Source: Paramacrobiotus metropolitanus (lineage: Eukaryota > Tardigrada > Eutardigrada > Parachela > Macrobiotidae). From it: a stretch of 64,000 bases of DNA. This document shows, piece after piece, positions 13,176-64,000 of the stretch (the first letter of the stretch is position 1; each line of letters starts with the position of its first letter). A model generated the notes under the pieces. It was not told where the DNA came from and did no database searches. It saw nothing but the letters and a program-made list of their open reading frames with translations. Both the position numbers and the translations under genes were made by a program. Location of the stretch: positions 3,534,001 to 3,598,000 of the forward strand of contig NW_026570223.1 in NCBI RefSeq assembly GCF_019649055.1. Reading direction: 5' to 3'.

Positions 13176-13193
13176 AGTATCCGTATTCCGTAG

Positions 13194-13213
13194 TAGCTAG
13201 TAGCTACTAGCTA
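13194..13213. repeat. Perfect 20-bp palindrome beside the hairpin
   Basis: The sequence TAGCTAGTAGCTACTAGCTA equals its own reverse complement and sits about 19 nt to the right of the 57-nt hairpin. The two palindromes together suggest foldback transposon debris. Confidence 0.8.
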
Positions 13214-13769
13214 GTAATACAGTAATACTGCGGCAATATTAAATCACTTACTGTAACAGTTTTTCCAAAATTAAGCAGGCGAAAAAGTGTATTATTAGGC
13301 CCTAAACTGTTCGTTAAAATAGTTCCAAAGCCGTTCCAGATTAATACTGGGACATGATATTGATGGTACTGCGGCATCCGGTTTTCAGTGCGCAAGGACT
13401 GTGCAGGGCCCTAAAAACGAAAATGGAAATACGGATGGAAACGGAAACTCTCGAATCAAACCATTTCGAGGAATGAGCAGCAGAAGCAACTGCTTTTCGC
13501 TAACACTAACGGATTCTTCTTAACCTGCATGATAAACTGCAAAAGTAGTTTCACTTGACGGTAACTATAAATTTTATACCTTTTACAAGATTTTACCCAA
13601 TGGATTGCGGTTTCGCAATTTTACTGCAGCAGATACTCCGTTCCTGATCAATCTTTTGTTTTGGTGCTTGCGTAACTCCTGAGTTCCGATTTTTGACAGG
13701 AAATACAAAAGCTCGCCATCAGCAGTGCGCAGCTGGTGCAGGACAAACTGCCGGCACAGAAATGCGCAC

Positions 13770-14906: not shown

Positions 14907-15159
14907 ATGCGCACCCGCGGCGGTTGCTCATAACACTTCTGCGAGACATTCCCCCTCTACACTATGAGTCCGTTACGCTACATTCCGCAGTAACCACATG
15001 CCACGTCCAATCATTTTCGTTCGCTTTTTACTTTTCAGCCTTTTCTAACCAACCTGCACACGCAGTAAATTTCATATTTGCAATTATTTCGCTTTCAAAT
15101 TACAAGAACTAAAGTATTTGTGGAAATTGTTTGACTCTGAAAATATATTGGGATTAAGG

Positions 15160-15849
15160 ATGGCTGTGAATGAGCATAGTAGTGAGACTTTCGTGCGGGA
15201 CGTAGAAGAGGAAGATGATGGCAATGTCTCGGATGATGAGGATACAGTGGAAGTGGAGAGGAAGTTCCTGGTGCCTGTCGATTTTCATGAGCGTCTGAAG
15301 CAGCACGGTGGACGCTGTCTCGTAGAGGAGAGCTTTACCGATGAGTATTTTGATCGTGATGATTATGCTTTCACCATGAACGATATGTGGTTGCGCGTGC
15401 GCGACGGTAAATGGGAACTGCGTTACGGAGAACCCGATAATCTGGATGTGCCAAGTAAAGGCACGGACCAGTTGCGCCGGACCGTCTACCACGAACAGCA
15501 TAATCCGGAGGAGATCTTGAAGACTTTGCAGTCAAAGGGCTTGTTGGAAAATAGCGTGGAAAGTGATGATTTGGCTTATGTGATGAACAGTGAACCGTTT
15601 AGGAGTTTTGCCACGATAACAGCAGTACACAAGACGTTTGGGGTTCCGTCGGTTCAAGATCTGTTGCCTGCGAAAATATCGGTAGAAGCTGCTGAGCTGG
15701 GATATCGTGTAGGAGAAATCGAAGTGTCTGTCGACAACAATGAAAGCATTCCTGAAGCGCTCCAGACGATTCGAAAATTATCGGAACTTCTCGGTAATCT
15801 TGGAAATTATGAATTAGGACATAATACTGCAATAAAATCAGGGTCGTGA
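15160..15849 (+). CDS. CYTH-domain thiamine-triphosphatase-like protein
   Basis: A single-exon frame of 229 codons, close to the usual length of animal thiamine triphosphatase. CYTH phosphatases fold into a beta tunnel and hydrolyse triphosphates with Mg2+. The hallmark ExExK motif is present as VEVERKF at about residues 30-36, followed by the expected second strand (FTDEYFDRDDYAFTMNDMWL), the basic WLRVRDG segment and WELRYGEP, and further acidic/basic strand residues near SVEAAELGYRVGEIEVSV. The N-terminus has an acidic extension of about 25 residues. The start is the first ATG in a frame whose family similarity begins soon after; an upstream in-frame TTG is not needed. It lacks introns, unlike its neighbours, which may mean retroposition or simple intron loss. 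A hAT element ends about 250 bp upstream. Substrate cannot be fixed from sequence; thiamine triphosphate is the best guess, other tripolyphosphates are possible. Confidence 0.85.
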   Translation: MAVNEHSSETFVRDVEEEDDGNVSDDEDTVEVERKFLVPVDFHERLKQHGGRCLVEESFTDEYFDRDDYAFTMNDMWLRVRDGKWELRYGEPDNLDVPSKGTDQLRRTVYHEQHNPEEILKTLQSKGLLENSVESDDLAYVMNSEPFRSFATITAVHKTFGVPSVQDLLPAKISVEAAELGYRVGEIEVSVDNNESIPEALQTIRKLSELLGNLGNYELGHNTAIKSGS

Positions 15850-17561
15850 AATCTGTTATGTTTCTCTTGTTCTAAGCTAAATTGTGCATTGGGAATTGAT
15901 TTTCTGAATTTACTCACGCGGTGGCTATTTTTTTCGAAATCCTGAAGGTACAGTAACAGCATGAAACCTTTGGTGTTCCATATTGTGTAAAATTGTATGT
16001 TGTTTGATTGTAAATGATAAAATCATAGACAAAACTCATTTAGGAATTCTGCTTCCGTTACGTGACAGTTATTTTACTGCTGAAATAAGTTTTTTAATTC
16101 ATGTAAAATGTGTATATAGGTAGTAGGATATTATTCGATGTCACGGGAAATCAGTAGTAATAGGCTTATTACTTAGTTTTATCTTGTGTATCTGTACGTG
16201 CTGTAATTACGTATGTGGTCTGCCTGCTGACTGTGCTCGTACCGCGTACAGGCTTTTTAATACGATAATAGTTTTGGGGTGAAATATTTACAATATTTTT
16301 ATGTTATACTGTTATGATTGTTCTTCTTAGGATTCGAACCATTAGCCAACATGAAAGAGGAACACATGCAAAATGGAGGATAATGATGCATGTTCAGGAC
16401 TGTTCCGACTGGATACGATAACAATGAATATCGCAATATGTCCGCGGTGCTTTAAGAATCATCCGGTCTGCTACAAAAAATTAATACTTTCTACATGTTT
16501 CCGTTTTGTGTCGCTCAAATCATTTGATGATTAATATGCTATATATTACTATATTTGAATTGTTTTAAGTCTTTTTACTTTGCTTTCGTGATAAACTGTA
16601 ACCTGTTTATGTTTAAGGCTTTTTAACGAATTTGTGTTCTGTTGTTGGAGCTTCTCTCGCGAGTTTTGTCAGTCAGTGTCCCACACTGTCCGACCGTCTG
16701 CAAAAATAAACTTCGGTGCTTAATGCTTTTAATAGAGCACAAACTCAAATATTCCGAGAATGAAGTGTTCTTGGTTTTATCAGTACTCGTACTCCAGCAG
16801 AGCTGCATAATTTCGAGCAGGCACAGTTATTCGTCGTGTGAACCCACAGAACATACTTCTCTTGACCTTTTCGTGTTACCGTTATCTTGGTATTAGGCGA
16901 ATAAATTAAAATAAAAACGTCATTAAAACTGAAAGAGCGACTGGCTAGCAGATTTTACTGACCAAAGGTATGCTTCTGGTGACTTCCACCAGGAAAGTCA
17001 GTGTCGTTGCCTGAAACTCGTAGTCAACGAAGTTCTAAGGCGAGCTTCTGACTTCTGAGCCTCATCGTCCAGGTATACAGATGATTTTAGACAATGGACA
17101 ATTTATGGGGTTTCCAAGAGCCGATACTGCTTTTACTCTGTTTTCCAAAAACAGTCATAATGGAAAACGCTTTAATCATAGGTTTTTGAACCAAAACGGG
17201 GCTTAAGCATAAACTGCGAACCCAAAAACGCGTAGCTGTAAAATTGCATTATGCAACCCCAAGTACAACTTGCACAATACTATGCACCGGCACAGTGTGA
17301 AGCTCGCAGTGGTACTGTACTATGGTAGACAATCGAGGAACGAAATGACATCAAAGCATTTTTTAACGCAAACGTATTCGTGATGGAGAAAATAACCCTA
17401 ATAAATATTCTTTCATTAACACAGCACAGCTAATCGACAGTATCCGCAATAATACCACGTCGGCAATGGATCACTGCTCATTTTTGCATTTTTTGGCTTC
17501 TTTATCACGTCATAATATGACAGACGGCGCTCAATGAATTGAAGCAGGATGGAATTTCTGG
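15850..17561. other. Spacer between CYTH gene and HPRT
   Basis: AT-rich DNA holding the 3' UTRs of the two converging genes. No further exon, RNA gene or clear poly(A) signal assignment. A B-box-like motif on the minus strand near 16331-16341 has no matching A box. Confidence 0.5.
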
Positions 17562-19417
17562 TTACTTTGATGGATTGACGGCATATCTTTGGATACCAGC
17601 CTCGTTAATGATGCAAAGATGCTGCGAGCGAAAACAAGTGCTATCGATGACGGTGTAATGCATAAAAATACATATATTTCGCAGCGTTGGGCTTACGTTA
17701 AGGTCACGGAATTTTTCATTATAATCCATTCCAAAACCAATCACAAATCGATCGGGTATCTCGAATCCAAAGACTGAAAATAATCAGCAACTTAAAGGAT
17801 ACATCCAATGTCACACTGGCTTATGCAACAAAGACATTCCGTTCTCACGCACAGTCTGGAGGGTAAGGAACGGATTTTCCACCATGTGCTACTCGTTTCC
17901 AGAGCATACTGTAAAAGAACAGGAACCAGCTACAAGTGCACCAGTATACAGAGGGCAAAACACAATACCTTACCTTGCAACTCGCAAGCTTTTGGGATTA
18001 TGCTGCTTTAAATTCTGGATCAATGCCTGCATCGTTCGACCGCTGTCGATTATGTCCTCCACAATCAATACATTCTATGATCATACACAAGTACAATGAT
18101 AAACTCCACTATTTCCGCGTTATCGCGAAACCGTTATGGCTTTCGCCAAGCGAGCCAAATTAACGTACCTTTTGACTGAAGGCTTCTTCGGGACAAAGCA
18201 CGCCCTGAACTTGAACATCACTACCGGTTACACTTTGCGTATTGACGTAGCTCTTAACGCGGATAAATTCGCAGAACAGCGGCAGGGAACGGCGAGTCTG
18301 TCCGTCGGGATGACTGTTTTTACTGCCATTTGTCTTTGGTTCACCGTTAATCTGAAGGGACTGTGGGAAGTCAGATGTCCCGCACGATTCCACATTCAGA
18401 TGTTCAATTTCCAGTTGAAGTGCAGAGAAAAATTTAAACGCTGACTTCAAAACACACACTAAAACCAAAGGTTCCGCTGCCGATGATGCATAGACATTGA
18501 AAATTTCTCTGGCAAGCCCTTTAATTCTGCAAAACACGATGTACTATTTAAGAAATATTAAAACTAGTAGCCATATTAATATTAACGCTATTAAAAATAG
18601 CAAAAATCAATTGCCTGCTATTTAGTATACGATATTAACAACAGGCTTAAATTTTGTTAGGGTGCGTCACAATAATACAACAAAAGCGAATGAAAACAAC
18701 AATGGTTTAGAACCTGATAAATAAAAACCTCACCACTCGGGTGGGAATAACCAACAATTAAAAATAAAACGCAGAATTACTGAGAAACACTAGCCACGAT
18801 TTCCGGGTACGATGTTAGCTATACTTCTATTGCTCACTTCTGTATAAAGCATGGAATTATGATCCAGCCCGAAGACACCGTTTCGCACTAATTACCGAAA
18901 TCCGCTGATTACTACAGTATGTCAGATGCATAATGCATAGTAAAAAACGCAAGTGTACTACAATGTACTCGTACTACCAAGTATTACCGAGATTCGCTAT
19001 CACTAAACTTATTAATACAAACTTAAATACAAAACCCTTAAAATGCCATGTAATGAACGTGAATAACGTGCTAATACTCTACTATTAGTCTATTATACAG
19101 AATTCTGATATTTCATGGCGACCCACCTATCACGAATGAGACCTTCAGGTATTATTACTGAATCCACATCTTTGGCATAGAAGGACGGAATGCAGAACGA
19201 ACTAGGAGGATAGGACAAAAAACTATCCGGAATCTGTCCAAAAAGACAAATTGCTTCTTATCACATAATTGTTGACGCTAGTAATTATTATGTCAGGTGC
19301 ACAGAAAAAACAATAAGTGTGTTACAAAGGTGTACTCGGGCATCTGCCTGATGCATATTGCATACCGCCATAATTAACTTGTTAACTTACAATCACAGCG
19401 TGGCTAATGGCCTCCAT
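17562..19417 (-). CDS. HPRT1: Hypoxanthine phosphoribosyltransferase, multi-exon
   Basis: Purine-salvage enzyme converting hypoxanthine or guanine plus PRPP to IMP or GMP in the cytosol. Exons read in phase: 19201-19127 ([19 protein letters not shown]), 18526-18169 ([30 protein letters not shown]), 18074-17974 ([19 protein letters not shown]), 17908-17853 ([15 protein letters not shown]), 17773-17697 ([21 protein letters not shown]), 17621-17562 (HLCIINEAG, stop). The PRPP loop [10 protein letters not shown] with its catalytic Asp and the purine-binding FGFEIPD region are intact. Two oddities: the pyrophosphate loop, LKGG in the family, reads LKSA, and about 28 extra Ser/Gly-rich residues precede FIRVKSY. 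The likely first exon is 19417-19391 (MEAISHAVI then GTAAGT), but it ends in phase 0 whereas 19201 needs two bases, so a short exon between them is missing from my model. Confidence 0.88.
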
Positions 19418-34730: not shown

Positions 34731-37700
34731 ATGCACCCCACATCTATACCGCAAAAAGTACCACGCAAACAATTTCAGGAATTAGCCGGACCGGAATCCA
34801 CCGGCGGAAAGAACTGGAAGGGCATCGGAATCGCGCTCTTGGTTATCGCTGTCATCTGCGCACTGGTCATTTTGGCTATAACGTTACTAGCACCGTGTAA
34901 GAGTCAGCATTCTGATAGTTTGCTTACCGCGTTTGTTATTAAATTGACGTGCACTTATCATCATCCTGCCCATCCAACAGCACACGAGGAGCATTTTCGA
35001 GACGGAATACCATTAGCTATTCATGAGGTGACGGACGGAAGTCTGTCGGCGTCCTACCGCGACGTGCAGTGGCTATCAGGTACTTAAATCCGGGTTGGTG
35101 TATTAATAAGCCTGAAATTATTATTACCGTAATAACTTAATTGAAAAATCCATTCAGTTTCTGAATATATTGTTACGAGTGATGATTTTCTTCAGTGATT
35201 TTTCACGGCACCGGTATAAAGAGCGAGATTGTTAAAACAAGCCAGTAAAATGAATATCCACGATGCCACACTTTTTGCCTCGACTTATCTAGTATATTAA
35301 AGCACAAACTTAATAATGACGCAGATAAAAACGATATATTGTGCATTAAGTTATTTTTGTAATTCTTTTCTTGTGATAATTCTTTTAAGTTTTTTTTTAT
35401 AAAGCCGGTGGAAGACTGTGTTGAGCTTTGTACTATTGTGGAAAAAATACTGCTATTAACAATTCTTATGTAATAATTTTAAGATATAAAGTGTGCAATA
35501 GTTTATTACAATCACCTCAATTGCATTGTTTGGCAAGATGTGAAAAAAGAAGCAAAATTTTTCATTATACTCGTAACATTCCGTTTTGTTTGTTTAGGTC
35601 ATGAACTGCTCTTCCAGTCAGAGACCAACCAATCAATCATATTACTTGATCTGCAAAACAATACCAAATCTTTGTTAGTGGATGTTGTAAGAACTTTGTC
35701 CTTTGATTCTGTTTACATCCTGAATATAGCTATGAAAAATTATTACTGACAACATTTCACTCTCTATTTTACAGAAAACAAACGACAAGATTAACTCTTA
35801 CTTGGTATCACCATCCAGGCGGTACCTTTTATATTCGCAAGATCCACTAAAGGTTAGTGCAAAAACTTCAATTTTAAACCATTGCATATGTTAATAAAAA
35901 GCTTACAATTTCTGCTACCAGGTCAAGCGTAAAATTTAGGCACTTCTTTGGTTGTTTCAAATAGTGCAAATTGCATCCGCATGGTGTACGGCAGCACCAA
36001 CATATTACAATAATATTGTACAATAATTAATGCAGGACAGTTATCAATGTTCGATTCTCATTTATTTCTAATAATGCATGTGCACAACTAGAGCACGAAG
36101 CAAATTAATTTCACTTTTGTACACTAAAAATTGCGTAATTGCCCGTGCGTAATATTGCGTGGAACAAAACCGTTTTTCTGCATCCGCGCGTCCAGGTTGA
36201 CGGGGCTTATCAAAGCGGGAATTATAGGGAAAACTATTATTAGCACGCGGATTTGCATTAATGACATCGGGCTGAATGCATTATTGATGGCTGAACGAAG
36301 CGTTGTGTACGTTGGCCGCGGTTGAAATGTAAACTGTATTAACCGTATATATCATTCGTAGGTCTATCGGCACACACAGAAAGCCTTCTACAAAGTTTTT
36401 GATTTGCACTACCACGCCTTCCCTAACGACTCACGGGAAGTTGGCCCGGAGGCTGTCTCTCTTCCTGTCAGACTGCAATATGCTAAGTGGGCTCCCAGCT
36501 CCGACAAACTGGTAAAAGCGCAGTTATGGTTATTTTGGACTACTATATACACCGGTTATGTCAAAAATTTTAATTTGTGTCACACGGATGGTTGACAGTC
36601 TATTCAGTGCGGTTCTTTTGTAGGTCTTTGTATATGAGAATGATGTTTATTTTATGAACTATACGCAACCAAACAATCCCGTCCAAAAACGGCTAACATC
36701 CACTGGATCTACCGACGAAAATGAAGTGGTCGTATATAATGGAATCCCTGATTGGCTATACGAAGGTACGGTGCACTTGCTCTAAGATCGAGAATTTATT
36801 TTCAATCGATACGTATTGTACAAGTACACGTAATGTAACAATAACCAAACCATAACAATTAATATACCCCTTGCATGTAGTATAGAGTTAAAAAGGAATA
36901 ATTAAGTAAAAATAACTGTGACTTTTGATTGAAAATGGAGCAATTCCGAGCGCGGAAAAATGTTTTAATTATAAAAGGATGCTGCTATCTTAATATGTAC
37001 TTCTTACGGCAGTATATGTAGTTTGGTAAGCACAGACTGGATTAATCACCAACCATTTAATCTTTAGCGAGCGCTGTGATTATTGTGCATTTTATATTCG
37101 TGAAGTGTACTATGTTGTAGACCGTATTATCGTTGTCTGTAGTTGTACCCATTCTGTGTTATATTGATTACTATGAGAATACTGATCCTTCGTACAATAT
37201 TACAGAGGAAATTCTAAGCCAAGACAATGCAATATGGTGGTCGCCCGATAGCCGATATATTGCATTTTTGAGTTTTAACGATACTTTGGTGGAGACATTC
37301 TCGTTTGATACCTATGGCGGGGATTCTATGCTGCAACAATACACCAACAGCACAAAAATACGGTATCCAAAGGTAATAATCAGCTTTATTTATGCCCGAT
37401 ATGATCAAAGTACTCTATAATAAGTGTTTGCATGTGTGATACGAATACAACAGAACAAAATAATGTACAGATTGATACTATCTGGCTTTACTTTCACAAA
37501 CCACAGACTTTTTAATTTTTTTGCTTTACAGTTCAAGTTATCACTTTTACATGCTGCTCACATAACTTCCCGTTTGTGAGTATTCATATTGACTGTAGGC
37601 GGGACATCGAAACCCAACTGTACAATTACACATCGTGGACACTGAAAAACCGTTATCGGAAATGTCCACAAATACGGCAATACCGCCGCCGGATAAGAAT

Positions 37701-40700
37701 TCCGGCTTTGAATTTGAGTAAGCTCTCCATAGCTGGCATTTTCCTACAGCGTCGGATCGCAATAACGGGATTTAATTGTTCCGATCTAGTGATTATTACA
37801 TCACATCCATGACATGGCTGTCAGCTAATTCTTTATTTGTCCGCTGGACCAATCGACACCAGAATGTGTCCCTGCTGTCGCAGTGTTCTCCAGAACAAAT
37901 GCGCTGTACAAAAATTTCCATCCAGAAAGCTGAAGTCGGTTGGTTAGATGTAAGTACACTTTCCGTGAATGTTCATTCAAAAGGGGAATGTTGCACCGTA
38001 ACAATTGATTACGAATTGTACTTTTCTAAACAAAAATTACAATCGATGAGCAGTCGCCTATTTACACTACAAAATGTAGAAATAACCACAAGGACTAGTT
38101 TCGAGACAGCACAGCACTACAGCACAACTTTCGAGATGAATATTATGCAGCTAATCAACTTATGTTACTGGTATTGTTACGTATACCATTGTGTTGACGC
38201 TTGATGAAGGTTTTTTTCGTATTTTCGCAGGACAGTGAGCCGAAACCTGTAGACGCTGGACGTCAGTTTTTAATGATTTCACCCAATTTCCAAAATGCCG
38301 ACCCGCAAATGCACAGAACAATATGCACCTATAATGTGCCCATGCAGGCCGATGTGCGACCGTCATGTTTGACCTTTGATTACGATATTTTGAGTATTCT
38401 GGCTGTGCACAACACGTCCCCCCTAACACTGTTAGCGACATTGATTAATTAAAACACTTCGATGTTTTTTGGCGAGGCAGCATGAGACAACCAGGTTTAG
38501 AGTAAAATTATTTACCGCATTTTACAGGTACGTTTCCGCCACCTACGACCATCCAAGAAACCGGCACCTGCTGCAGATTATCGGCAACAATGCCACCTGC
38601 CTAACATGTCGGCTGCAGTCAAATTGTACATATTTCGAGGATATTAGCTTCAGTCCCGACAGTCAGGATCATTTCGTCTGGAATTGTCGTGGCCCCAATG
38701 CCCCTTATTCCCAAGTGTGGCGGCTGAATGACCTGCTGAACGCAACGGAAACCACGCTGCCGCTGGATGTGCTGAAATCCAATACAGCACTGCAGAATCG
38801 GCTTAATCGTCGGGCACTTCCACATCGGAAATATGTGGAATACGACATTCCTGCTGCGCCGCATGGACCAAGTATGAAACGTGTTAATTAAGTTTTTCTA
38901 AATGCTACAACAACTGTCTTCGTACCCACAATAATCTACTTTGAAAAACTTGGTAAATATACCAGCTTGTTAATAATAACACTGAGGTTGCATTTTCTCG
39001 TAGCATAATCTATTCACACTTATTCTACTTGTATTTTAATCACTCAAATTAGGCAAATTAATTGTTTTTTATGCAATGCCATCGATTTGAAAATTTAAGT
39101 CGGCACTTGATTTTTGTGCGCCATTAACGTTGTAAGATGGTATTTGTTGCGCTTGCCGATTTCCTGATTATACTAACTGATTTGCCTGCATTTCTACTGT
39201 TTTTATTTTATTTTATGCGGATGCATCTCTTATCACGTTGGCTCTTGCCGATCAAAATTAAAATATATAAATAATATAAACTGATTTTGTATTTTTATTG
39301 CTTGCCGAAATTATGTATGGGAATATCATTAATTGACAGAAGCCCAAGTGGAACTGCTCCTTCCGCCGCGACTTGTGGAGTATGCCGACAAGCGCTATCC
39401 ACTGCTGATCAAGGTGTATGCCGGACCTGGATCCCAGGAAGTCCATTCGCGTTACCGCATGGAGCTGGAAGAATTTCTGGCCAGTGCCCGTGATGTGGTG
39501 GTTGCTCGCATTGATGCGCGCGGGAGTGGATACCAAGGTCATCGCCTACAAGCGTCCGTGTATAAAAATCTGGGTGTCGATGAAGTTAAAGATCAGCTAG
39601 AAATTATCAAAAAAGTTCTAGAGCAGTTTAGCTACCTGGATCCATCCCGGGTCGGGATATGGGGATGGGTAAGATATGTGTTGCGCATAGTGCCATAACT
39701 AGGTGTTGTATAATTATACGAATGCACCCCAATGAAACTGATTAAATTTTGTTGAATGTAGTCTTACGGAGGTTATGCAAGCGCACGAGCAGTGCTTTTC
39801 GACAACGTGCAATTACTGAAATGCGTAGCGTCAGTGGCTCCTGTGACCGACTGGAGGTTTTATGGTAAGGGAATAAGGATATCACGCTAAATATTACAGC
39901 TACTTGTTCACGGCACTTAAATAAGATTACTTAATTGTGATCCTTCAGTAGAGCGGTATTTTATAAGGTTTTCTTTAAATGCAAATTAAAAACATTAGGT
40001 TATTAATAACATTAATTTTCAAATAACATTAGATTATTATATATATCTACTCATATCGCTGGGTAAAATAAAGAAATTTACATGTACAGCCATGAGTTTT
40101 TTTCTTCAAGTGTGCAGTCACGTTATTATTAATTTGCAGATACCGCTTATACTGAGCGCTACATGGGACTTCCGGCCGAGAACAAGCATGGTTACGACAA
40201 ATCCAATTTAATGTCTGCTAATTTTGACACGTTGTACTGGCACTTTGGCAGAACGTCCTTCCTGCTAGTCCATGGAACTGCCGATGGTAATGTAAAACGG
40301 TTAATTTTTCTGCACTATGTGCTACTAACTGTTAAAGCATTATTAATTATTCTCATTAGCCTAATCAGATGTACCCCGTATTAATGAGTGGCTATTTCTG
40401 TTGCAGATAATGTGCACTTTCAGCAAGCCGCCCAGTTCTCTAAAGCCTTAATGAAATCCGACGTGCTTTTCAAAACACAGGTAATTATACCAGTAAATAA
40501 ACTGCTATGCTTCTGTTACGTATTCCTGCTTTAGTGCACATTTTATTCGGAGTGTTTAAATGTTTGCACTTTGCATGCTCAGGTGTATCCAGACGAAGAC
40601 CATGGAATAAGAAAACTACGGTCCCATTTGTACCACACGCTGGTTGACCACTTTTTAACTTGCTTCGGTGACGGAATGTCGCACGAAAAAAGTGATGAAT

Positions 40701-41227: not shown

Positions 41228-43062
<1,835 letters not shown>

Positions 43063-43899: not shown

Positions 43900-44909
43900 A
43901 TGGTAAGAACGATATCATGTTTAAGGTTTTCAGGACTGACTGTCTACCATTCTGTTTTCATCTGCAGTCCGCGGACGATTCCTCAGTTACGATTCGGACC
44001 AGGCATTTTATGACGAACCGCCTGCTCAGAAGGAAACAAATGGTAACAAATGGAGAGCCAATGCTGACTACAGTGGCCGGGATTGTAAGGAAAATATTTG
44101 TGTACAGATTGTAGATATTATCCATCCTGGCCGATCCACCCTGAAGCGTAATGAAGTGAGAGAAAAGGTGGCCCGTTTGTACAAAACCACTCCAGATACC
44201 GTTGTGGCATTTGGATTCCGTACGCAGTTTGGTGGCGGTCGTACCAAAGGATTCGCCCTGGTCTACGATTCAGTTGATTCCGCCAAGAAATTCGAACCCA
44301 AATACAGATTAGTTAGGGTAAGTGCGACTATGCAAGAGTATTATGTGTACGAGGATCCGTGTGGCACGCTCAGATTCGGAGTTCACTTTTCAATAACAAA
44401 TTTCTTTAGTCTTTTTCGGGCACTTTTAACTTCTTCTTTATGTGTTGCTGCTCTGGCAATTTTTTTCTTGACTATAATGCTGACGGCTTTATTTTTAACT
44501 TTCTTATATGGAGCTGCAGATGGATTGCTTATAACCTTATTGGAAAAAAGTGTTTTTCTGGTAGAAAGCTTTCTTGAGAACGCTCGTTAGTCTTTAAGCG
44601 GTTAATGATTATGAATGGTGTCTTTCACGTAGCGCAGAATTCTTCGTGTTAAAGTATCGTTGTATCTTTCTTTTTAGATGGGTCTCGCCGAAAAAGCAAC
44701 AAAGGCTGGTCGTAAGCAGCGCAAGGAAAAGAAGAACCGTATGAAGAAAGTCCGTGGTACCAAGAAATCACAAGTTGGCGCTGGAAAGAAAAAGGTAAAA
44801 ATGTGTTCTTAATACAAAACTTACTATGGATTGTGGAGGATCCGTGCATATTGTACTGTGGCATTAATATTACCTGCTAATACTGTATGTTTTCTTTCTT
44901 TTGCAGTAA
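43900..44909 (+). CDS. RPS24: 40S ribosomal protein eS24
   Basis: Component of the small ribosomal subunit. Five exons: 43900-43902 (ATG only), 43968-44042, 44108-44317, 44678-44794, and 44907-44909 (stop codon only), giving 135 residues. The protein reads [80 protein letters not shown] and a Lys/Arg-rich tail ([19 protein letters not shown]), as in animal eS24. An exon carrying only the initiator Met and tiny terminal exons are also found in vertebrate RPS24, where the 3' microexons are alternatively spliced. The last intron separates the final Lys codon from TAA; if it were retained, translation would add Val-Lys-Met-Cys-Ser and stop. Intron 3 (44318-44677) stays open in frame for about 90 codons. 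AATAAA follows at 44993. Confidence 0.97.
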
Positions 44910-46014: not shown

Positions 46015-49000
46015 TCAGAGAGTAAACACCTGCTCCGTCCCGTGTATAATCCCATTATTGTTCTTCCCATCCAGAACAATTTTCGTCACATGCTGCGCTG
46101 GACGCGGTTTGAGCTTCTTATCTGATCCCCGGTGCGCATTGGCCGAGGCCACCCGATCACTTCCCGTCCCGGAACTCCCACTGGCGTTGTGGCTCAATCC
46201 CACCGTGAGATCGCGGATTTCATCCACTTCATCGTCGTCTGTATTGTAGGATGTATTGGACGGATAGGACGATGTCGAAGCGGCTGACGCCGACATCTGC
46301 GATGACCGCTGGGGACCGTTGCGTGTCGCCGGCGAATTATAGGATTTCGATTGAGCATCACTTAGCACGTCGGAATTGGATGGGGATTTGTTGGTGGTGC
46401 GGAGTTGCAGATTGGCCGGCTTCACCGTGACGATCAGGTTACTGCTGTTGGCTATCATCATATCGGTTACTTGGTCGAGTGTCTTGTTGGCCACCTCGAT
46501 ACCGTTCACTTCGATCACTTCATCGTTGACCGATAGTAAGCCCGTGCTTTCGGCTAAACCGCCCGGTACCAATCGAGAGATAAAAATGCCCGGAATCTTC
46601 TCCAGACCATTGTGTGTCATACGGATGCTGGTACCATCCCGAATATAAAATCCTATAATAAAACCCCAATAACTATCAAAATTCAAAACGAATAATTTTG
46701 TCACAAATACAAAACATTTTGCGGCAGTATTAACTACTGCACTTCGAAGTCTGAACGGCAATGATGGCAGTTAATCGTGCCTAATGCAAATGCTGAATTA
46801 CCAAAAAAATATTTATCAGTCTTCATTTTTGCTGCTCGTGCCGCTTCCTTCACCAACATTTAAAACGTTTTTCAAGTATGAGTACAATGCTAAATCTGTG
46901 AGCGCTAATGCTAAATTCAATATCAAGTTTTATACATATCATTCAAACATAATTCGAGTGTCAACCAAGCCAAGTCTCAATTCGGTTTATGTTGAATGAA
47001 ATAAAAGTCCGATTTACACAACAATTAATTATGTATTCAAAGTGCACAAACACAGTCAAGGCGGTAGATTTACGATATCAACGCCCATCTACTGCTCGGC
47101 GTTTTTGTCAAAAACACCACAGAGAAGTCAACCTATCGTTATTCTAATAAGACCCTCAATACCTACCAAGTGGCCTGTCGGAGCCATGCTTGAGAAGCCG
47201 TACGCGACGGTGTGTTTGCGGGAGGATATCAACGTCGATTATGGCGGAAACTTGCCTGCAAAGCATCCAAATTGTCAACAACTTCAATTCTTGTGGTTGC
47301 TAACATAACCGAATACTTCAGACCAAGAGGTTACACAATAAGCGGAGCAGCCAGAATGTGCTGGAAAAATAAATGCCAGAACTGTTTCGGTAATACCGCT
47401 CACTCACCTAAAATCTTCGGGCATACCAATCTTCAGCAAAGGACCCTTTGCTTTATTGGCGGAATTCGAGCTCAAGGGCGCAAGAATGAGACTCTTCCCC
47501 TTTTCCTTCCGTCGGTTAATGGTACTGTAACCGATCAGTTCACTCCAGTTTTCATCTGTAAAATCATAAATAAAATGAAACTATGCTGCTTTTATTTTCT
47601 GTGACCTACATGTGATCTAACATGTATATAACTCGGCAAGTAGCAAAAATTACATTAAATCCCTATTACTATCGTTTACAAATTCGATTTTCTTTCTGGA
47701 GTTTTGCGGCGCTTTTGTGCTCCAAGATTAAAAGCAGCGACTATTTTAGTTATCGAAAACGAAGGCGCAAACGATACACCGTCAGTCCACCACTAAACGT
47801 ATGAATCGATGGTTATTGCTGCTTGCGAGACAGGTAAATGATTGTTTACTCATATCGAAGACCTTGATACTGCATTTCGTCAGTAACCCAACATATGCGT
47901 TCTGCATGTAGGAGTAGAACATATAAGGTAATTTATTACCGCGATCCCACGCAAATCTAGAAAATTACGTTACGAATACTTGATCTGCCAGGTTAGCCAC
48001 ACTTTATTCGGCGTCGGATGGTCAAAAGATTAGAAGGTGTATGCGTGCACAGTGTAATATTTATGAGCAGGTGAGCAATGCTGGCGCTATGAAATATGAA
48101 TATCTGTCACCTGAGCCTGAATCACGGCGACCAGAGCGAACAAAAGCCAAACACACTGTGGGCCAGTTTAAGCTAATAATTCAAATTAAACAAACATACC
48201 TTTACGATTTCATGCTCTGAACCCTCAGCCAAAGTTCAGTTAAATAGGGTCAAGCCAATTAAATCATTTGCGGTAAGCCCCACATTTTGGTACCATGTAC
48301 CAAAGAAGTATCGAAATCTCAAACGACCCAGTTCAAATTCAAAATATGTTATTGCACAGGAAAAGAAGCTTGTTTAGTATTGCATTCGACCGGAAAAATA
48401 ACCGGTACAGAATCTTTTACGAATTGTGAGGCGAAATACATTAGCTGGCGAACAAATTTGGCATCATTATTTCATTACCAAAGAAGTTCGCGCTGCTCCG
48501 ATTTTTGTTTGTAAAATTTCCCAAGCAGTACGTTGTCAGCGAACTGTTCGGAGTAGGAGAATTTCTGTATGAAAAAGCCACTACGGTGTGCTTACTTCAA
48601 TTCAAACGGCAGTTCTGAATTACAGCAGGTCTAGGCTGTTCGTGCAAAAAAATTTTCCGGCCACGAAGCATTCTTAAAATAAAAAATGAATATCCTCAAT
48701 TGCATTACTTTTGCATATTTAAAGATGTCAACCTAAAACATGTTTCAGCTTTTAGCTACAACTTATTCAATAACATAAACATTACAATATTTGTTATTAT
48801 TCCAATAATATCGTACATAAAAACCACAGACAGACATTCTTAACTGTAACTACCTTGGCCCACCGACGGCACATGTCAGCACGGTCGATCTGGCGCAATT
48901 TTAAAATTATTTAATTGTGGGCATAATTTATGATTACACTCAGAACGAGAAGCAAAAAGAAACAGCACGAAAAATAAGAAAATATGAAAAGATCCTAAAT

Positions 49001-51417
49001 AAGCATTTATGAATTTCTGACAGTAAAACAGACAATTTCAATAAACATTATTCACGAAGTTTACAACACATCTGTCAAAAATCAAAATACCTGTTGCATA
49101 AACCTACGATTTCCACTGTAGGATCGCTGCCACCATGCAAACCTTCAGAACTATGAGCACATTATGTACGAGCAGAATAAGCCACAAGTACGAATAATTC
49201 ACCAAACCTTATTATCGTGGTTCTGAAAAGTAATTACTCAGATTAACATTTAGCTGGTATTACGTATATTTCGGTGACTTCAGTCAGTGAGAGCCTCTAG
49301 AAATAAGTGCACGATGCAAAAATAACTTCTAACAACACACGTGCGTCTAAACATCAGGAATCATATTCCCAATCATACACTGTCATACTTGTATTTATTA
49401 CACAACCCTGGTAAAATTCTTGCAAGGTAATGAAATGGGGATCACAACAGTAATTTTAAAAATTTTAGTGGGATTCCTGGTATTCCAAATTCTACTATGT
49501 TACGAATTGTCAATTCTGGGTGAGCCTGAAGCAGTAAATAACAATGGCATTCCAGCTTGTTTTAGTAGATACATCCGTTGCTCATCGTATTAAACTGTCT
49601 TTAGCGACTGCTCATCATAATTAAGCTTTCTACCTCGGGGGATAAATTCAGTTACACTTTGGAATAAGAAATACGCCAAAGAATAATGCGACAGCTAATA
49701 ACTTCGGATCGTGTGTGATTTGATTTACACGATAACAAGCCTGGGAATATCCGAAATGCGGCATTACGACGACCATATATAAAAATAGCTGAAAAAGCTT
49801 ATTTCCTAAAAAGCAAAAATTTTTAAAACGAACAAAGTAAGGGTTATCAATGTCAATAATAACGCGCCATTATTTATTTAGCAAAATTATTTATAAAATT
49901 TTAAAGTCTGTCAAAATTTATTAATGTTCACAAAGATAAAAGCATTTGTCAATGAGTCATGCCGATGAAAGCAGTTTATGCCTAAAACGATAAAAGACAG
50001 CTTGTTTCCATAATGCCGAAAGTCGTAAAAAACGACTAACCGTGCTAAATTAATTCATACTAAAATAAACAGAAAATGCTCAGCGTGCGAGGCACATACC
50101 AGTTTGTTTCGGCATCATACTGGAATGTAAAGCGCAAAAGAAAATGCATCATCAGAAGCATTATAAATTAAACTGCATACCGTACTTTACAAAGCCTGAG
50201 CAATCGGCCACGTTTTTTCCTTTTTGGAATGGTACGAATTGCGCTATCAAACAGGCTAACTGATAAGAAGGACGGCATTGTTGGCTGTGTGAGAAACACA
50301 GGCGCACAATAAATACAATTTTCAGGGAAAAACATGAGTTAATCATGCGCCGAGTCACAGCATAAATTAGTTGGTGCGCGGCTAATCTCTGAAACGCCAC
50401 CAACAGAGCGCCGTTTCCGGATAACACACACCGCACTACATGCAAGCAGACACGAAATTCCGACTGTCGCCGTAAATACGATAAACTTTCCATCATCTAC
50501 CACCAATCCGCCTAAATACCTAACCAAACGCTAAACGGTCAATCCGGACTTATCAAGCATGTTCGCAGCAGTCATGTTCAACATTTCCACCAACTACGAG
50601 CTTCTGACAAATGCAAATATAAAACGGACAAGAACAACACTCCAAAATCAACAACCGAATGTCGCAATGTCTTGCAGCATCAAGACAGAAAAAACGCCAG
50701 ACTAAATAAAAACTGTTTTACAAAGTAACCACCACAATTTGCACAGGAAGCACGCTGCCATATTAGAAAAGCATCTCTTTTTAACAATTTCGCGAAACCG
50801 TCTACTTCTGGTCGAGGCACAACTGTGCAAAATTCTTGAAATATTACAAGGCAAAAAAATTGTCGTAAAACAACCCAGAATGAATAAAACATATACCAAA
50901 ATAAGAACACTCGGGTTATGCAAATAGAAAGCGATTTTCGATATCTGTGTTTTGGCTTACCTTTTCGCTGTACAAAAATCCTTAATATACTCTGAGTCCG
51001 TGTGGTTGAAAGCGCTTTAGCGAAATTGTCATTATTATTGATGGGCAATAAATCGCCTTCTTTATCCGTATAAAACACCACAAAAGGAACATGTGACAGT
51101 CCGTGAAGAGCTTCCAAACTTTTGTGGAAATCCTCAAAGTTATTCACCAGTAGGCGATTCAAGGAGAATCTTCGAAATTCCGCATCAAACTGCAACAGAA
51201 ACAGCATAAGAGAGGTTTTACAAAACCTCAGATAATTAAATAAGAAAAACAGAAATAAGATCTTATCCAGTTATACATTATGCGTCACATAGTGCCTGCA
51301 AACGGCAAATACATAACTCATGCTGCTAAACTATTCACAGCGACAACCTACTTTGCTTTTGATTTCGACCAAATTGGCGCCAGTTTGGCTGTTGAAGTCC
51401 TTTCCCTTTTTCGACAT
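46015..51417 (-). CDS. PARD6: Partitioning-defective 6 (Par-6) polarity protein
   Basis: Scaffold that joins aPKC and Cdc42-GTP in the Par complex controlling cell polarity. Five exons in phase give 389 residues: 51417-51352, 51189-50961, 47555-47408, 47255-47167, 46652-46015. Exon 1 ([20 protein letters not shown]) leads straight into the PB1 domain of exon 2 ([35 protein letters not shown]; about residues 20-98), which binds aPKC. Exons 3-4 carry the semi-CRIB ([20 protein letters not shown]), which binds Cdc42. The PDZ domain follows ([53 protein letters not shown]; about 160-262). A Ser/Asn-rich tail ends EQVFTL, resembling the C-terminal Thr-Leu of other Par-6 proteins. Intron 2 is 3.4 kb (50960-47556), the longest in any gene here. 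The tiny first exon was found by its VEIKSK end matching the family and its good donor. Confidence 0.96.
47556..50960 (-). other. Long second intron of Par-6
   Basis: 3.4 kb between the PB1 and semi-CRIB exons. I see no internal gene or exon. Frames such as 50161-50496 lack family features. Its length is unusual against the short introns in the window and it may hold regulatory sequence. Confidence 0.6.
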
Positions 51418-56012: not shown

Positions 56013-57496
56013 ATGCGTGTAATATTTTGGTTGATGCTTATCAGTGGGATAAGCCTAATATCCCTAATCACCTTTTCTTCATCGTGCAAAGAAGCATTAT
56101 GCGCCAGTGTCGTGAGCAAGTGCCTGCTAATCGACGCATGTAAATGTGATATTATAAACTGCACCTGTTGCAAAGCCTGCTTTCAGTGTTTGGATACATT
56201 ATTTGCCGATTGCTGCGAATGCGTTGGTAAGAAAAAAATGCTACAGTAAACATGCGCAAAAAAGTATACTCGTATATGTAGTATAATTTCGCTGATTCGT
56301 GAATATGACTTACATATGAATGATATTATTATGGTGTTTGAAGATAGGGAAATGTGCAGTCCAGTAATTCCGAGCTGTCCCGTCGATTAGTACTTTACAG
56401 TAGAAAGACCGTAAGCGGTGAATCTACTGATTTAGAAACCACGATACTCGTATAAATGGGAAAATTCTGAAGTCTCAGCAATTTCGTCTCTGCTTCTGAT
56501 AGTGCTGTATGTTACTATAATTATACGCATGAAAGTATTATTTAAAGATATCGTGGCTGCGAGTAGAAAGTAAAAAAAGTTGGAAAACCACCATTAAAAT
56601 CATCACAAAATATACTTTTCCGTCTTTAAATGGTTGTGGATCGTAGATATGTGTCCAAAAGCAGTATCGGCACCCAGCAACCTCAGTTCGACCAGTCACG
56701 TGGAAGACCTCCCGGACCCCCTGGTCGAACTGTTCAATGCCCTCACCGAAGAGCACGATGCCACGGGACGCTGGACGACATACACGTATCCGGTCCAACG
56801 CGATCTCTCGCTGTTCCTTGGAGCAAGTCAACTGCAACAAGTCGAGTTGGGTGTCGGTAAGTGAATTTACATATTCGTCAATCTTCGGGGTCGCGTGTGT
56901 TTTCAATGGGACCGGAAGCAACGAAAAATTCTCCCGTTCCGCTCCCTGTAAAACGCGAGCTCATTTTTTAAAATAGGTGGACTTTGCTAGTTGTCATTTT
57001 GATCGTGCCATGATATTCTCGATTTATTCCAGTGTCCAGAGATTCGACATCCCCCTGGGCAGCGGTCAATTGCACGGTGGCCTTCATGGCGCAGTGTATG
57101 CCATGGAATAAATGCAAAAACAGCTGCCGCTCCATGGGCGCCAGCAGTTATCGCTGGTTTCATGATGGATGCTGTCAGTGTGTGGGGAGCAATTGTCTCA
57201 ATTACGGGATGAATGAGACCCGCTGTCTCAACTGTCCACGCATGTCCGGCAGTGGGATGGATGAAGAATACGAAATTCCCGACGATGATGACCGGCCCAG
57301 GAAGCACACGGATGCCACGGAAGAAGCGTCACAGGAAATATGGGATCGCAGTCACAATACGCCGCCGTTTCCCATTCCGACCACAGCCAAACCGAAGGCC
57401 AAGCCGATACCGGCGCGGAGTCCTGCAAAGACCGTCGCGCCCAACCGGCCCGGTCAGAATACTGCTCGACCGGCAATGCCAAGGACGGCTGGCTGA
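56013..57496 (+). CDS. TWSG1: Twisted gastrulation BMP-binding protein
   Basis: Secreted cofactor that binds BMP ligands and Chordin/Sog and shapes dorsoventral BMP signalling. Three exons in phase: 56013-56226, 56647-56856, 57033-57496, giving 295 residues. A signal peptide (MRVIFWLMLISGISLISLIT) precedes the cysteine-rich N-terminal domain: CKEALCASVVSKCLLIDACK, CDIINCTCCKACFQC, FADCCECVDMCPK. The middle carries LPDPLVELFNALTEE, as in the family. The C-terminal domain has VNCTVAFMAQCMPWNKCKNS, CRSMGASSYRWFHDGCCQCV and CLNYGMNETRCLNC. Beyond the usual end, an extra tail of about 80 residues is acidic (EEYEIPDDDDRPRK) and then Pro/Lys-rich, with no cysteines, making the protein about 70 residues longer than vertebrate TWSG1. 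NCT and NET sites are possible N-glycosylation sites. The ATG was chosen for the signal peptide; an in-frame GTG two codons earlier is not a start. Confidence 0.96.
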
Positions 57497-57787: not shown

Positions 57788-59652
57788 CTAGCAAAGATTC
57801 TTTGGCGGTGGCAGATAGGGTACCTTTCCTTGAGTGAACTCCGCTGAGGCAAACTGGTAAAAATCTTCGGCTGTCAGCATACTGGTATCCGAATATATAC
57901 CGCTCGGGGGTGCCTGCGCGACTGACTGATCATGTGGCCTCTGTTCGCCCATATTTTGAATGGGGGCAGAAGTGGCACCCTAAAAAAATAATTACGTAAT
58001 TTACATCGTTACAGTATACACAAATTTTTCGATATAAAGCACGAAATACAAAAATGAGGACGAAGAAGCAGATCGTTAAAACGTTTTGGGAGACGTGCCT
58101 GAAACTGGAGAACAGGTGAAGGTGTTTCCTGCCGGACTTTGTTCTGAGCTGCTTTAGCATGAATTTCCGATATCTGCAAATAATTATGTAAAACACAAGT
58201 GAACAAAATTGATAATACGCAATCGGAGAAAATAAATTCAGAATGCCTAACCACAGCTTTGGCTTCGTTCGAATTAGGATTGGAGCATGCTTTGCACACT
58301 TCCGATAAAATATTCCGAACGCTGTTGCTTTGTCGGACCACACCATTCACCTAAATGAAAAACGAGTACTTAACTTGTGAAAATGCAGATCGTTGTGTCA
58401 AAATGAGAACTCAAAACAAAAGAATTTGATCAATTAGGGGGGTGCTGATCATTTAGGAATTTTATGATACGATCAGTGACTTAATTAATTCTGTAGCCTG
58501 CCACTGCTAAAGTTAATACATCTAAAATATAAATCGAAAACCGAAATAATTGTTCTAAAAGATACAAACATCAGCATTAATGCCGTTATCGCAGGTAAAA
58601 TTGGGTATCGCATACAGTTCAAAGCCCGGCTCTTACGTATTCGCTCAACTGTGATGCGTCGTCTCTGACTACATACGCCATAGCACGCAATTCTTCCGGG
58701 GAATAATCTTCCAAGCCTAGACAAATTGTATCAAGTCATCCTCTGGCAACATCATTTCGACGAAAAGCGCCAACCAATACCAAACAATGGATCCGTCTGA
58801 ATTTGACCTTCGGGACTGCGATACGTGTACGCCGTGAACGGCCATATCTTTCTCACTTGGAACACAAGATCACTCCGCGCCGTCTGATGAAGCATATTCG
58901 TTGCATCGAGAAGAACATCGTTTCTAAAATGGCAAAAAACCCATCAGTTCTCTAGAAGTAGTGCCCATCCCCATTTAGTATCACACATTAAATTTTAATT
59001 TGTTAACATTTTCCATAAGCTTTCAAAAGATAACCGTAAATATACATGGAACGGCAATAATTAAGGCGTATTTCAGCGGTAGTGCCATTATGCCATATAC
59101 TGCAATGATTTACAATTAATTAAAAATAAGTACGTACTTACAGCACTTCTAAATCGGAAGACGGACGAACTGATTGTGCAGCTGCAGGGGACGGAAATCG
59201 ACCGGGAGGCTCGAATCTGCTAGGAGAAGTAAAATGAGGGCTTCCGTGGAATCCACCGGATGCAGCTGCAAAGTTAAAAGCAAAAATCAGTTCCAGAACG
59301 AGAAGCGAGAGAAATCAGGCGATGTTCTTTACGTCGTGGTTCCCAGCTCGAGCTGCTCCGAGGGCCTGAATATCTCTAGACATATAAAAACTCCATATAG
59401 ACGATCAAAATATTCCGTGTTCTTCTGTTCTTCGTAACAACCAATATTTACAGAATGATTCTGGGGATAACGGGGCCGATATCCACCACCGCGGTGACCA
59501 GAATATCCTCCGCGCGGATAATATTGCGCATTTTGATAACTGTCGTCTTCATAGTACTCTTCGTACGCTGCATCAGCGGGATGTTGATTATGGCACCTAT
59601 CCCCATATTTGCAGCGCCCTTCCAGAAAAAATCGGCAGACAACGTTCGCCAT
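57788..59652 (-). CDS. NUP42: NUP42-like CCCH zinc-finger nucleoporin
   Basis: NUP42 (NUPL2/hCG1) sits on the cytoplasmic face of the nuclear pore and helps Gle1/DDX19 release exported mRNA. Exons: 59652-59452, 59375-59333, 59265-59142, 58923-58781, 58716-58637, 58350-58252, about 58173 to an unsettled end, and 57979-57788. The protein begins MANVVCRFFLEGRCKYGDRC then HNQHP, a single CCCH finger at the extreme N-terminus as in NUP42. An Arg/Gly/Tyr-rich linker follows, then IWPFTAYTY and LEDYSPEELRAMAYVVRDD, matching the conserved core, and a C-terminal FTQGKVPYLPPPKNLC, the counterpart of the family's Gle1-contacting tail. Canonical FG repeats are few, so the protein is shorter than vertebrate NUP42. 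The 43-nt second exon was inferred because it alone restores phase between exons 1 and 3. The donor of the penultimate exon is unresolved. Confidence 0.82.
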
Positions 59653-60246
59653 TGTTTGTGTATCAGAAATCCAACAACGCAAATCTCTGGAAGGACGATT
59701 AAAAACTGCGAGAGAAGTCCTGCGCTGGCAGTACTAATGCGCGCCTACAGGCTGCTAACAGTCATGAAAACGAAAACGGTGTGACGAAATGTCTTGGACT
59801 TGTACCTACTGCAGCCTACCGCAAGGTGGCGACCAAGTTGATACCGCCGTGGAGTGGCGAGTCGGCGAACAAATTGAGTGACTCACCAGGATTGTTCTGG
59901 ATTAGTCACTCGCTCCTGATCCCATTTCTTCCAGGCACGAATTTCACCTTTAGATTGCTTTATTTATCTAAGTTTTCGTGCTGTTTTTAAGGTGCGCAGA
60001 ACTTCTTGCATTATATGGGGATTTGCTGCTGTTCTTAACACCGTATAGTTTTACTACTCCAGCATTCGTCAACGAACAGGTTTCTGCTTCGAAAAAATGT
60101 GCACTTTCTTTGTTATTCTGCAGTCTTCTCGTGTATCACGCACTTAAGATCGTAGTTCTCGTACAGCAGTACTCCATTAGTTAATCGGTTTTTCTTGATG
60201 TTCCACCACGAAGACTACGTGGAGTTCAACGGTCTTGCTAAAGAAA
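59653..60246. promoter_or_regulatory. Divergent promoter region, NUP42-like and NEK1-like
   Basis: 594 bp separate two start codons that face away from each other, so this segment must contain both promoters and 5' UTRs. No TATA box is evident on either strand. A shared bidirectional promoter is likely but not proved. Confidence 0.6.
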
Positions 60247-63200
60247 ATGAATAATTACTCTCGAGTTAAACAGATTGGCGAAGGGAGCTTTGGAAAAGTG
60301 CATCTTGTCAGCGATAAAACCACGCACGGGAAATATGTGATGAAGGAAATCAATACAGGCAAGATCACCGCGAAAGAGTACAACGAAGCGCGACAAGAAG
60401 TTGCGGTGCTGTCCACGCTACGGCATTCAAACATTGTTGCCTACCGTGAATCGTTCGAGGAGAAAGGCCTTCTGTACATTGTGATGGGCTACTGTGAGAA
60501 TGGGGATCTGTTCTCTAAGATTGAGTCGCAGAACGGTGTGCTGTTTCCGGAAGATCTCATCCTGGATTGGTTTGTGCAACTGTGTATGGCCGTCAAGTAC
60601 ATTCATGATCGGCGTATTCTGCATCGGGATATTAAATCGCAGAATGTGTTTCTGACCCGGTCTGGTGCGGTGAAGTTGGGGATTTCGAGATAGCGAGGGT
60701 TCTGGATAGTACGCAGGATTTCGCCAAGACTTGTATTGGCACTCCGTATTATCTCTCACCAGGTTGGTGTAAAACATGCAGATAACACTGAATTAGTTAA
60801 AGAAAACTGCCATTGATTGTTGCAAGTTGGAACACTTGTATTTTGGTATTTGTACAGCCTTGGTTTTGATGCTTAATTTTAATTGTACAAGTATTCTGCG
60901 ATTTTTGATAAGGACTCTTCTTTAACTTAATTCAGTATGGGATTTCAAATACTAAATGATTTCAATTTTGTGATCAAATCCCGTATTTGATCACCAAATT
61001 TCAAATTTCATATCACTTTTTTTCCAACTCGGGATTGTTGTATTTTTGAAAATTTTGAAAAATCAGAAAGATTTTACTTTTCCTGCACGAGTGCATGTAA
61101 TAAAATACCACAACGTGTTAAATTATTTAATTTGGAATCGGTTTTTTTTGGGGAATTGTTGTTTTGTTTTACCTTCCCCGGAAGTCGTGTAAATATTTAA
61201 ATCTGACTTAATGCTGTATGTTCGTCATTGTTGCTGTTCATTGTAATGTTATATTCCAAATTTGTTTTTTACTTGATTTGTGTTTCCATTTTTTGTAGAA
61301 ATCTGTGAAAACAAACCATATGGATACAAAAGCGACATGTGGAGTCTGGGCTGCGTCTTATATGAACTCGCCACTCTGAAACACCCGTTTTTAGCGAATA
61401 ACATTAAGACTCTTTTGACGAAAATATTACGCGGCACGTATCCTCCGATCTCGACATCGTACAGTTCCGATATGAAAGACCTTATCCAGGCCCTCTTTCG
61501 GCATGAACCCAAACATCGCCCTTCCGCCACCGCTGTTCTGCGCCGCCCAGCGGTGCTGCAGCGCTGCCGCAAGTTCTTGACAGAGTCCAGCTACAACGAG
61601 TTGGAGGCTTCGGTGAATTTGGCTCCGGTTCGCTCGAAGAAAACATTTATCACCACCAAAAAGGTTGTGCAAAAAGCGCCGACCTCCTCACCGTATATGC
61701 AGTCATTGCAGCGCACGAGGACGCGGACACGAACGATAACATCGGGAACACAGTTGGATCCGGAACGGATTCGCAAAGCGGCATTGCGCAGTAAGGAAGC
61801 GGAGCGGAAGGCGGTGGCACGGAGGCAGAGGGCACTGGATCTGAAATCGCAACGGTCGACCGGGACCACGACGGAGAGTTCATCGTGGATGTCCAGTTCC
61901 GCGGAAGACTTGACCCCTCGCGCCATTGATTTTGAAACGGAAGAATATGCAGTGATGAAAGGGTTCGTTTTGTGTAGTGGCTCATCTATTTTCCGAATGC
62001 GTATTTTTGCAGCCTAAGGAAGTACACATTTTTAAAGTTGTTGAATGTGTGTAATCGCTCTGTACGCAATACAGGCACGAACGCAACAAATTTATTTAGT
62101 AAGGGGCACTTTGTGTGCCGCACTCATGCGTGGTACTCATGCGATTTCAGCTCCATTTTTGAATTTTCAGTATTTATTGGGACTAATTTTTCTTATTTTT
62201 TTGTAAGTAGGATTGTTCATTGAAAACTACGGTTCAGTTGGAGGAATTGCCATAATGTTTAAGTTGTCATTACGCATTGCCACCGCGTATTCGGACCTCA
62301 TTATTGTGGTGTCTTCTGCTCAGTTAAAAAATTTGCATAAATTGTGCATTGCTAGGGCGACAAATACGCCGCTTCGTGAGCGCTCCACCAGCCTGGACAG
62401 TACCGCCTTTTCCCCACTTCGTGCACCTTTTAACGACCACATCCAGTCGATCGAAATTGCAGATGTGGATTCGGCCAGTGTTGGTTCAGCCATTCCTCTC
62501 GGGATTCCGGTTTCCCGATGCGCCTCGCATGTGTCCGAAAAACCTCGACCGCAGTGGCACAACGAGCCGATCCGTTTGAGTTCCATTCACGCCATGAATC
62601 CGGAGATGACCGCCTCGCAAATGGATTTGACCACCAGCGCTGACATGGTTGTCTTGCATTGCAAAGAATCCGGCAGCCAGTTAGATGCCACCAGGATTAT
62701 TTTCCCCCGAATGGACGACTTTCCCTCCATTCGGGACGTGGAGTGCGACATGACGCCACGCTCTGTAACCACGGGCGATGGACTGGCTGATGGCAATACG
62801 GAATTGGCACGTGAACGAATTTCTGATGGGGAATTTTCTGATGAAGTGAATCGGCATAATAAGGAAATTCACGATGGAGAATTGCAGCCGGAGGCGGCGC
62901 ATGTTAACGACATGGGCTGCACAAGTGCGCCGACGTCGCGGCCTGTCAGTGCCCGCTCGCAAAATGGGATTAACTTGGCGGCGGCTGTGCGAAAAGAGAT
63001 TTCTGACTGGGTTGCGTCAGTGTCGAAGGAACCAGACGTTGAGGTAAAAGGGAAGGTCAATGGCTGCGGGCACAGTGTCATAATAATGTGGATCAACTAA
63101 TTAGGCTTTACTTGTACTTTATGCCTGTATGCCGAACTGGTCGAACCAATACAAAAAAATGTTCAGTACGCCTTCAAGACACATTGTTATAGTACTGGGT

Positions 63201-64000
63201 ACGCTTTTTAAGAAATACCATTACAGTTATATCTTTGTTTGTAGTTGCTTTCGGCATTTTGCTGTAATGCTGTTCGAATTAGTTGTTTATTAGCATAAAG
63301 TTACAACCAGACTGATAATTAAGTGTACATTAAATCCTGGTTTTTGCTTTTTCCAGTAGGAATTTTTACAGGGTCACAAATTTCGAATGCGTTATACCCG
63401 TGGGGTGGGTAAAATTTGTGATTTATCATAAATTTCTGGTATGACTTTAGGAAGAAATGCCGGAAGTCGATATTGGCGGTTCAGCACGGAGTGAACTCTC
63501 CATAACTGACGCATCCAATGGGCTCCCATCAGCGCTAAGCGATACCGTGACGTTGGTTGGCTCCGATTCCGATGAGAGCCGTAAGTGGATTTGTTATAAA
63601 CCTTCGTCTTTTGGTAATTTCGATCGATGTAGAGTTAAGAATTTTGTTTTACTAATGACAATGTTATACCACATCTGGTTGCTTTCTGGGTTTACCGTTA
63701 ATTTTCATAATATTTTTTAGTTAGTAGTGCTCGTCTTTCCAAGCCGCCCTCCAAGTATTGGTTACTGGAAGCTCGCCGCCAGGAACTTGAAAAGTTATTA
63801 ACTTTGGACACGTTTCGGGTTTGTTACTGGACTTTGGCAAATGCGCTGAGTATTGCTGAGGGAGCTGACGATGAGGGACATCAGGAAGAAGCCATCGCTC
63901 ACGTAGGAAGAATTCTGGGAGATGATAAGCAGCAGTTAGGCAATAAGATCCTTGCTTTGGTGCTAAGCGATGCTATGCATTTTTTTAACGCAGAAAAGCC
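60247..64000 (+). CDS. NEK1: NEK1-like kinase, frameshifted, runs off window
   Basis: NEK1 is a Ser/Thr kinase of cilia, centrosomes and DNA repair. Exons: 60247-60762, 61299-61962, 62356-63043, 63451-63580, 63721 to past the edge. Kinase features in order: glycine loop [12 protein letters not shown], Lys in [59 protein letters not shown], then after a one-base gap [21 protein letters not shown] and [21 protein letters not shown] basic Arg/Lys segment, a Ser-rich linker and a C-terminal region ([13 protein letters not shown]) like the end of NEK1 follow. Two oddities: exon 1 needs one extra base at the GGGG run 60678-60681, otherwise it stops at 60691-60693; the DFG motif reads DFE. All other joins keep phase only if that base is added. 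It could be a sequencing or assembly error, an inactivated allele, or a true defect. The 62356 acceptor is less certain than the others. Confidence 0.88.

Follow-up and report, generated by a model that had tools for sequence, protein, structure and literature searches.

Is the NEK1-like kinase gene at the end of this stretch broken in the animal, or is it broken in the sequence record of the animal? The window, by which we mean the whole 64,000-nucleotide stretch of DNA that was analysed, is animal-like genomic DNA with intron-containing genes and 59% A+T. A gene for a NEK1-type kinase of the NIMA-related family starts on the forward strand with the ATG at 60247, and the frame that begins there stays open to a TAG at 60691-60693, giving a product of 148 amino acids. 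The initial annotation had noted this TAG and a GGGG run at 60678-60681 just ahead of it, and both were located as claimed. It had left a choice between an assembly error and a real lesion. That is the right question, and the evidence leans to error: the gene is probably intact, with the frame break and an apparent change of the DFG motif to DFE both arising from a local error in the consensus. We infer that the sequence record, not the animal, is the source of both anomalies.

Exon 1 in its first frame (60247-60678, forward strand) includes the catalytic loop and matches the Pfam Pkinase family over 60247-60690 with an E value of 6.4e-38. Its first 144 residues align with the NEK1 kinase structure 4apc over their full length and without a gap (E = 5.2e-57, 194.6 bits). 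This part had been called perfect NEK1 up to KLG; the end-to-end match is good but not perfect, with 89 of 144 residues identical. After VKLG the first frame reads ISR and then meets the TAG. A shift of one base at the GGGG run restores the NEK1 reading, as had been proposed. Specifically, all 27 residues of the second-frame piece read from 60681 align with NEK1 (E = 1.7e-7, 20 of 27 identical), a match too good to be due to chance. This piece is the activation segment (60681-60762, forward strand); it ends one base into a codon and is followed by a donor GT.

The remainder of the C lobe (RPSA) and a basic linker are encoded by exon 2 (61299-61962, forward strand), which has AG before it and GT after it. 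Exon 2 matches the C-terminal half of Pkinase (E = 2.7e-14) and aligns to NEK1 chain residues 196-290 (E = 4e-29, 48 of 95 identical). The claim that exon 1 ends in the phase required by the next exon was borne out, base 60762 and the AA at 61299 together making a Glu codon that is followed by ICENKPYG; this is the Glu of the SPE motif. All three pieces, taken in order, have NEK1 as their top PDB match, and 157 of the 266 aligned residues are identical (89 + 20 + 48), a closeness judged against kinases with solved structures, among which NEK relatives without a structure could not compete. Identity to NEK1 is 61.8% in the N part, 74.1% in the activation segment and 50.5% in the C part.

Eight positions of the N part that we take to be catalytic (G11, G13, K33, E51, H126, D128, K130 and N133) are retained, as are the motifs GEGSFG and HRDIKSQN and the Lys and Glu of YVMKEIN and QEVAVL, respectively. 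The DFG aspartate and RPS, read from the alignments, are also retained. The catalytic Lys, the HRD Asp, the DFG Asp and SPE are thus all present, spread over two reading frames. The threonine ahead of CIGTPYY is present as well (TCIGTPYY); the PDB construct prints ACIGTPYY, its alanine presumably being an engineered change. The only changed landmark seen is the DFG glycine, whose codon is replaced by GAG at 60687-60689, such that NEK1's DFG reads DFE, coded GAT TTC GAG (60681-60689, forward strand). The reported DFE is present, but its description as a change in the magnesium-binding motif needs qualification. The magnesium ligand itself is the DFG aspartate, as a passage on BRAF states (PMC4619530) and as D146 is designated in a passage on NEK1 (PMC10185812). 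In the window this Asp is kept and only the Gly is changed.

Chain residue 167 of NEK1 sits between the two matched pieces (23-166 and 168-194), and the window has two bases at this point, 60679-60680. NEK1 is followed on both flanks of the break, where only one residue is affected. Both anomalies, the frame break and the Gly change, are confined to an 11-base patch at 60678-60688, and so the kinase domain as a whole is not decaying. Of the three pieces, it is the activation segment, immediately beyond the break, that is most conserved, and an old lesion does not look like this. Stops are present in all three frames of exon 1 (one, seven and nine), and in the record no single open frame crosses the kinase domain; the TAG in the kinase frame may be an error of the record.

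A separate observation concerns an 8-mer, GGATTTCG, which occurs twice in exon 1, at 60680-60687 (at the break) and at 60716-60723, 36 bases apart. Both copies encode Asp-Phe. The repeat may be due to chance, and it could favor a slip in local copying or in the consensus.

The exons downstream had been described as open, and they are. Probable exon 3 (62356-63043) is open, and both it and probable exon 4 (63451-63580) have AG before and GT after, with phases that fit. Probable exon 5 (63721-64000) is open up to the end of the window, and the gene runs past it; all three lie on the forward strand. Every boundary within exons 2-5 carries GT and AG, signals from which the boundaries were picked by eye, and the joined exons, read from the first complete codon of exon 2, run for 586 codons without meeting a stop. 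A Pfam scan of 62210-63097, the region of probable exon 3, found no family. In the C-terminal stretch 63714-63998 neither a Pfam family nor a significant PDB match was found (the top PDB hit, at E = 0.13, is unrelated); the stretch may resemble the C-terminal region of NEK1 with its C21ORF2/CFAP410-interacting domain. A processed pseudogene lacks introns and a decayed one carries many scattered stops or breaks. Here the introns fit in phase and there is a single break.

A CCCH zinc-finger gene (59332-59733, reverse strand), which we take to resemble nucleoporin NUP42/NUPL2, lies head to head with the NEK1-like gene. Farther upstream, a Twisted gastrulation gene (56082-57238, forward strand) is split into three or more pieces, with matches to Tsg_N and Tsg. 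A dipeptidyl peptidase IV-like gene (37193-40294, forward strand) has open exons where examined and a 72-nucleotide intron, and a peptidase exon with SYGG was found between its two matched stretches. A 2Fe-2S thioredoxin-like ferredoxin (41776-42413, reverse strand, E = 9.1e-33), presumably NDUFV2-like, has at least two exons with GT and AG visible. An exon of ribosomal protein S24e is found at 44111-44326 (forward strand, E = 2.3e-26), and a CYTH-domain protein, which we assume to be thiamine-triphosphatase-like, at 15049-15846 (forward strand, E = 8.6e-12). A PDZ domain (46426-46635) and a PB1 domain (50965-51195) are on the same strand (reverse), spanning 46426-51195. They possibly belong to one gene, which we would take, again possibly, to be Par-6.

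These neighbors served to gauge the quality of the record. A six-frame Pfam scan of 19001-64000, with stops written as X, covered 18 translations. Eight of these gave Pfam matches, all from 34001-64000; within 1-19000 three open frames were tested. From 34001-64000 we took 15 conserved stretches (1,063 residues), setting aside an additional 2Fe-2S stretch and, where related models hit the same place, the overlapping hits. They include Tsg, PB1, PDZ, ribosomal S24e, the DPP IV-like peptidase, the 2Fe-2S thioredoxin-like ferredoxin, the CCCH finger and the kinase. Twelve of the 15 contain no stop, and the other three, with four stops in all, run into introns with a visible GT or AG; in the DPP IV-like stretch, removal of the 72-nucleotide GT-AG intron gives a continuous reading. 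The kinase was the sole gapless frame switch found among the 15, on a scan that very short switches could escape, the 27-residue activation segment itself having matched no family. The other stretches inspected have ordinary introns, splice signals having been inspected at all but the Tsg_N/Tsg, DPPIV_N/S9 and PB1/PDZ gaps and the acceptor of the SYGG exon. With no other gapless switch in these stretches, general decay is not the cause, in agreement with the initial annotation.

Runs of at least five equal bases in the window were counted against a first-order model. There were 10 G runs (14.5 expected), 12 C runs (16.1 expected), 229 A runs (185.2 expected) and 161 T runs (152.8 expected), showing that runs are not generally shortened. 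Rfam at the gathering threshold and ARAGORN returned no match in the window.

A local consensus error would look like what is seen here: a conserved gene has one break, of one base and at a homopolymer, a second anomaly follows closely, and no further damage was detected. Both the apparent frame break and the apparent DFE would result if, within 11 bases, the G run were one base off in length and one letter close by were miscalled. Long-read data are described as erring mainly through homopolymer indels (PMC12007338). For a MinION assembly of a small genome, the same source reports that deletions were commonest after runs of four to five and that errors in A and T runs were roughly double those in G and C runs (PMC12007338). 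Against a consensus error, the GGGG run is short, and a substitution beside an indel calls either for two errors or for a single patch of poor consensus. Moreover, the 1,063 residues examined show no further error, so that the assembly is not visibly error-rich. Exons 1-3 contain 24 runs of at least four equal bases, three of them G runs, and the other 23 break no frame, although beyond the kinase part there is no relative against which run lengths can be checked. The intact run counts and the 23 harmless runs of 24 speak against an error-rich record, and they are the main points against the consensus-error reading.

The same cleanliness of the other stretches examined, which look error-free, can be turned in favor of a real and very recent NEK1 null allele in the sequenced animal or haplotype, an explanation that we regard as unlikely. 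On this account the letters are as the record shows, the product is cut off at 148 residues in the middle of the kinase domain, its mRNA would probably be degraded, and NEK1 is supplied by the other allele or by another copy. The conserved sequence beyond the break requires any real lesion to be young, and a young null allele would be indistinguishable in appearance from a consensus error. What tells against it is that a young lesion would have to hold two separate changes within 11 bases, unless both arose in one event.

A species-level kinase-dead NEK1 is a good deal less probable. Its non-catalytic regions would act in a protein made from a start site farther along or from an alternative transcript, both of them hypothetical, and the downstream exons are indeed open and spliceable. 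Support by analogy comes from human cells, where the NEK1 mutant D146A is described as still binding C21ORF2/CFAP410 via its C-terminal domain (PMC10185812), and from BRAF G596R, which alters the DFG glycine (a position inferred here from D594) and is listed as kinase-impaired (PMC4619530). Disuse should scatter changes over the catalytic domain, however, and the other catalytic positions checked are kept. The initial annotation's alternative was a disabled kinase with its non-catalytic regions retained; their retention is no evidence here for a scaffold role, because the catalytic regions outside the 11-base patch are retained too. In a pseudokinase the loss of a catalytic residue is fixed in the lineage; here the DFG glycine differs in one record only. 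A fixed kinase-dead NEK1 with its scaffold regions kept is thus possible, and we give it little credence. A literature search for DFG motif, glycine, DFE and pseudokinase together gave no match, from which we do not conclude that DFE kinases are unreported, and a search for tardigrade together with NEK1 gave none either. A scan for a contaminant relative of the exon 1 protein in bacterial and archaeal contigs gave 28 pattern stretches, of which two loci were confirmed, in bacterial MAGs, at 32% and 29% identity, and was uninformative.

It is very improbable that RNA processing or translation repairs the frame, through a tiny or unusual intron or through ribosomal frameshifting at the G run. 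Within exon 1, 33 GT-AG pairs (donors 60560-60739, acceptors no later than 60762) rejoin the two frames without a stop, and introns down to 72 nucleotides seem to be in use in the window. Yet all 33 pairs remove NEK1-aligned residues of the catalytic loop, the DFG region or the activation segment, and direct joins from the interior of exon 1 to exon 2, which lie outside this list of pairs, would lose the activation segment. The two frames abut with no extra sequence between them, so splicing would have no insert to remove. No standard slippery heptamer, as used in ribosomal frameshifting, was seen; the 100 nucleotides that follow the run have a folding energy of -24.0 kcal/mol (z = -0.49), with 60 of 200 shuffles as good. 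With conserved residues lost in the one case and no heptamer and ordinary folding in the other, the micro-intron and frameshifting were rejected as likely causes. A-to-I editing could alter the GAG codon but not the frame, and hence cannot explain the break. What little probability remains goes to combinations of causes, for instance a spurious frame break next to a genuine DFE; all these weightings are judgements and were not computed.

If the consensus error is accepted and the gene is intact, it would encode a working NEK1-like protein, whose kinase domain would phosphorylate and whose C-terminal region would bind partners, with roles in cilia and DNA repair. A gene model built on the record would then be split or called a pseudogene, and the site should be flagged. 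A lesion confirmed by reads and common to relatives would instead bear on how the functions of NEK1 divide between those that depend on kinase activity and those for which the partner-binding region is enough, a question addressed by work in human cells. Were the kinase-dead reading true, the animal would be running the ciliary and DNA-repair roles of NEK1 without kinase activity.

Among known kinases, NEK2 and NEK7 share the motifs and are the next best matches, but they are weaker than NEK1: at best 77.2 bits against 194.6 for the N part (where NEK7 is the runner-up), 27.5 against 32.6 for the activation segment and 54.8 against 105.1 for the C part. The NEK1 kinase domain (PDB 4apc and 4b9d, which we take to be human NEK1) is the same best match for all pieces, and the gene differs from it by the frame break and the DFE in the record. 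The D146A mutant, as described in PMC10185812, is likewise a DFG lesion in NEK1, although the mutant changes the Asp, whereas here the Asp is kept and the Gly differs. In BRAF G596R, as listed in PMC4619530, it is the DFG glycine that is changed, as here; the differences are that BRAF is another kinase, that the change is from Gly to Arg and that it is a tumor variant.
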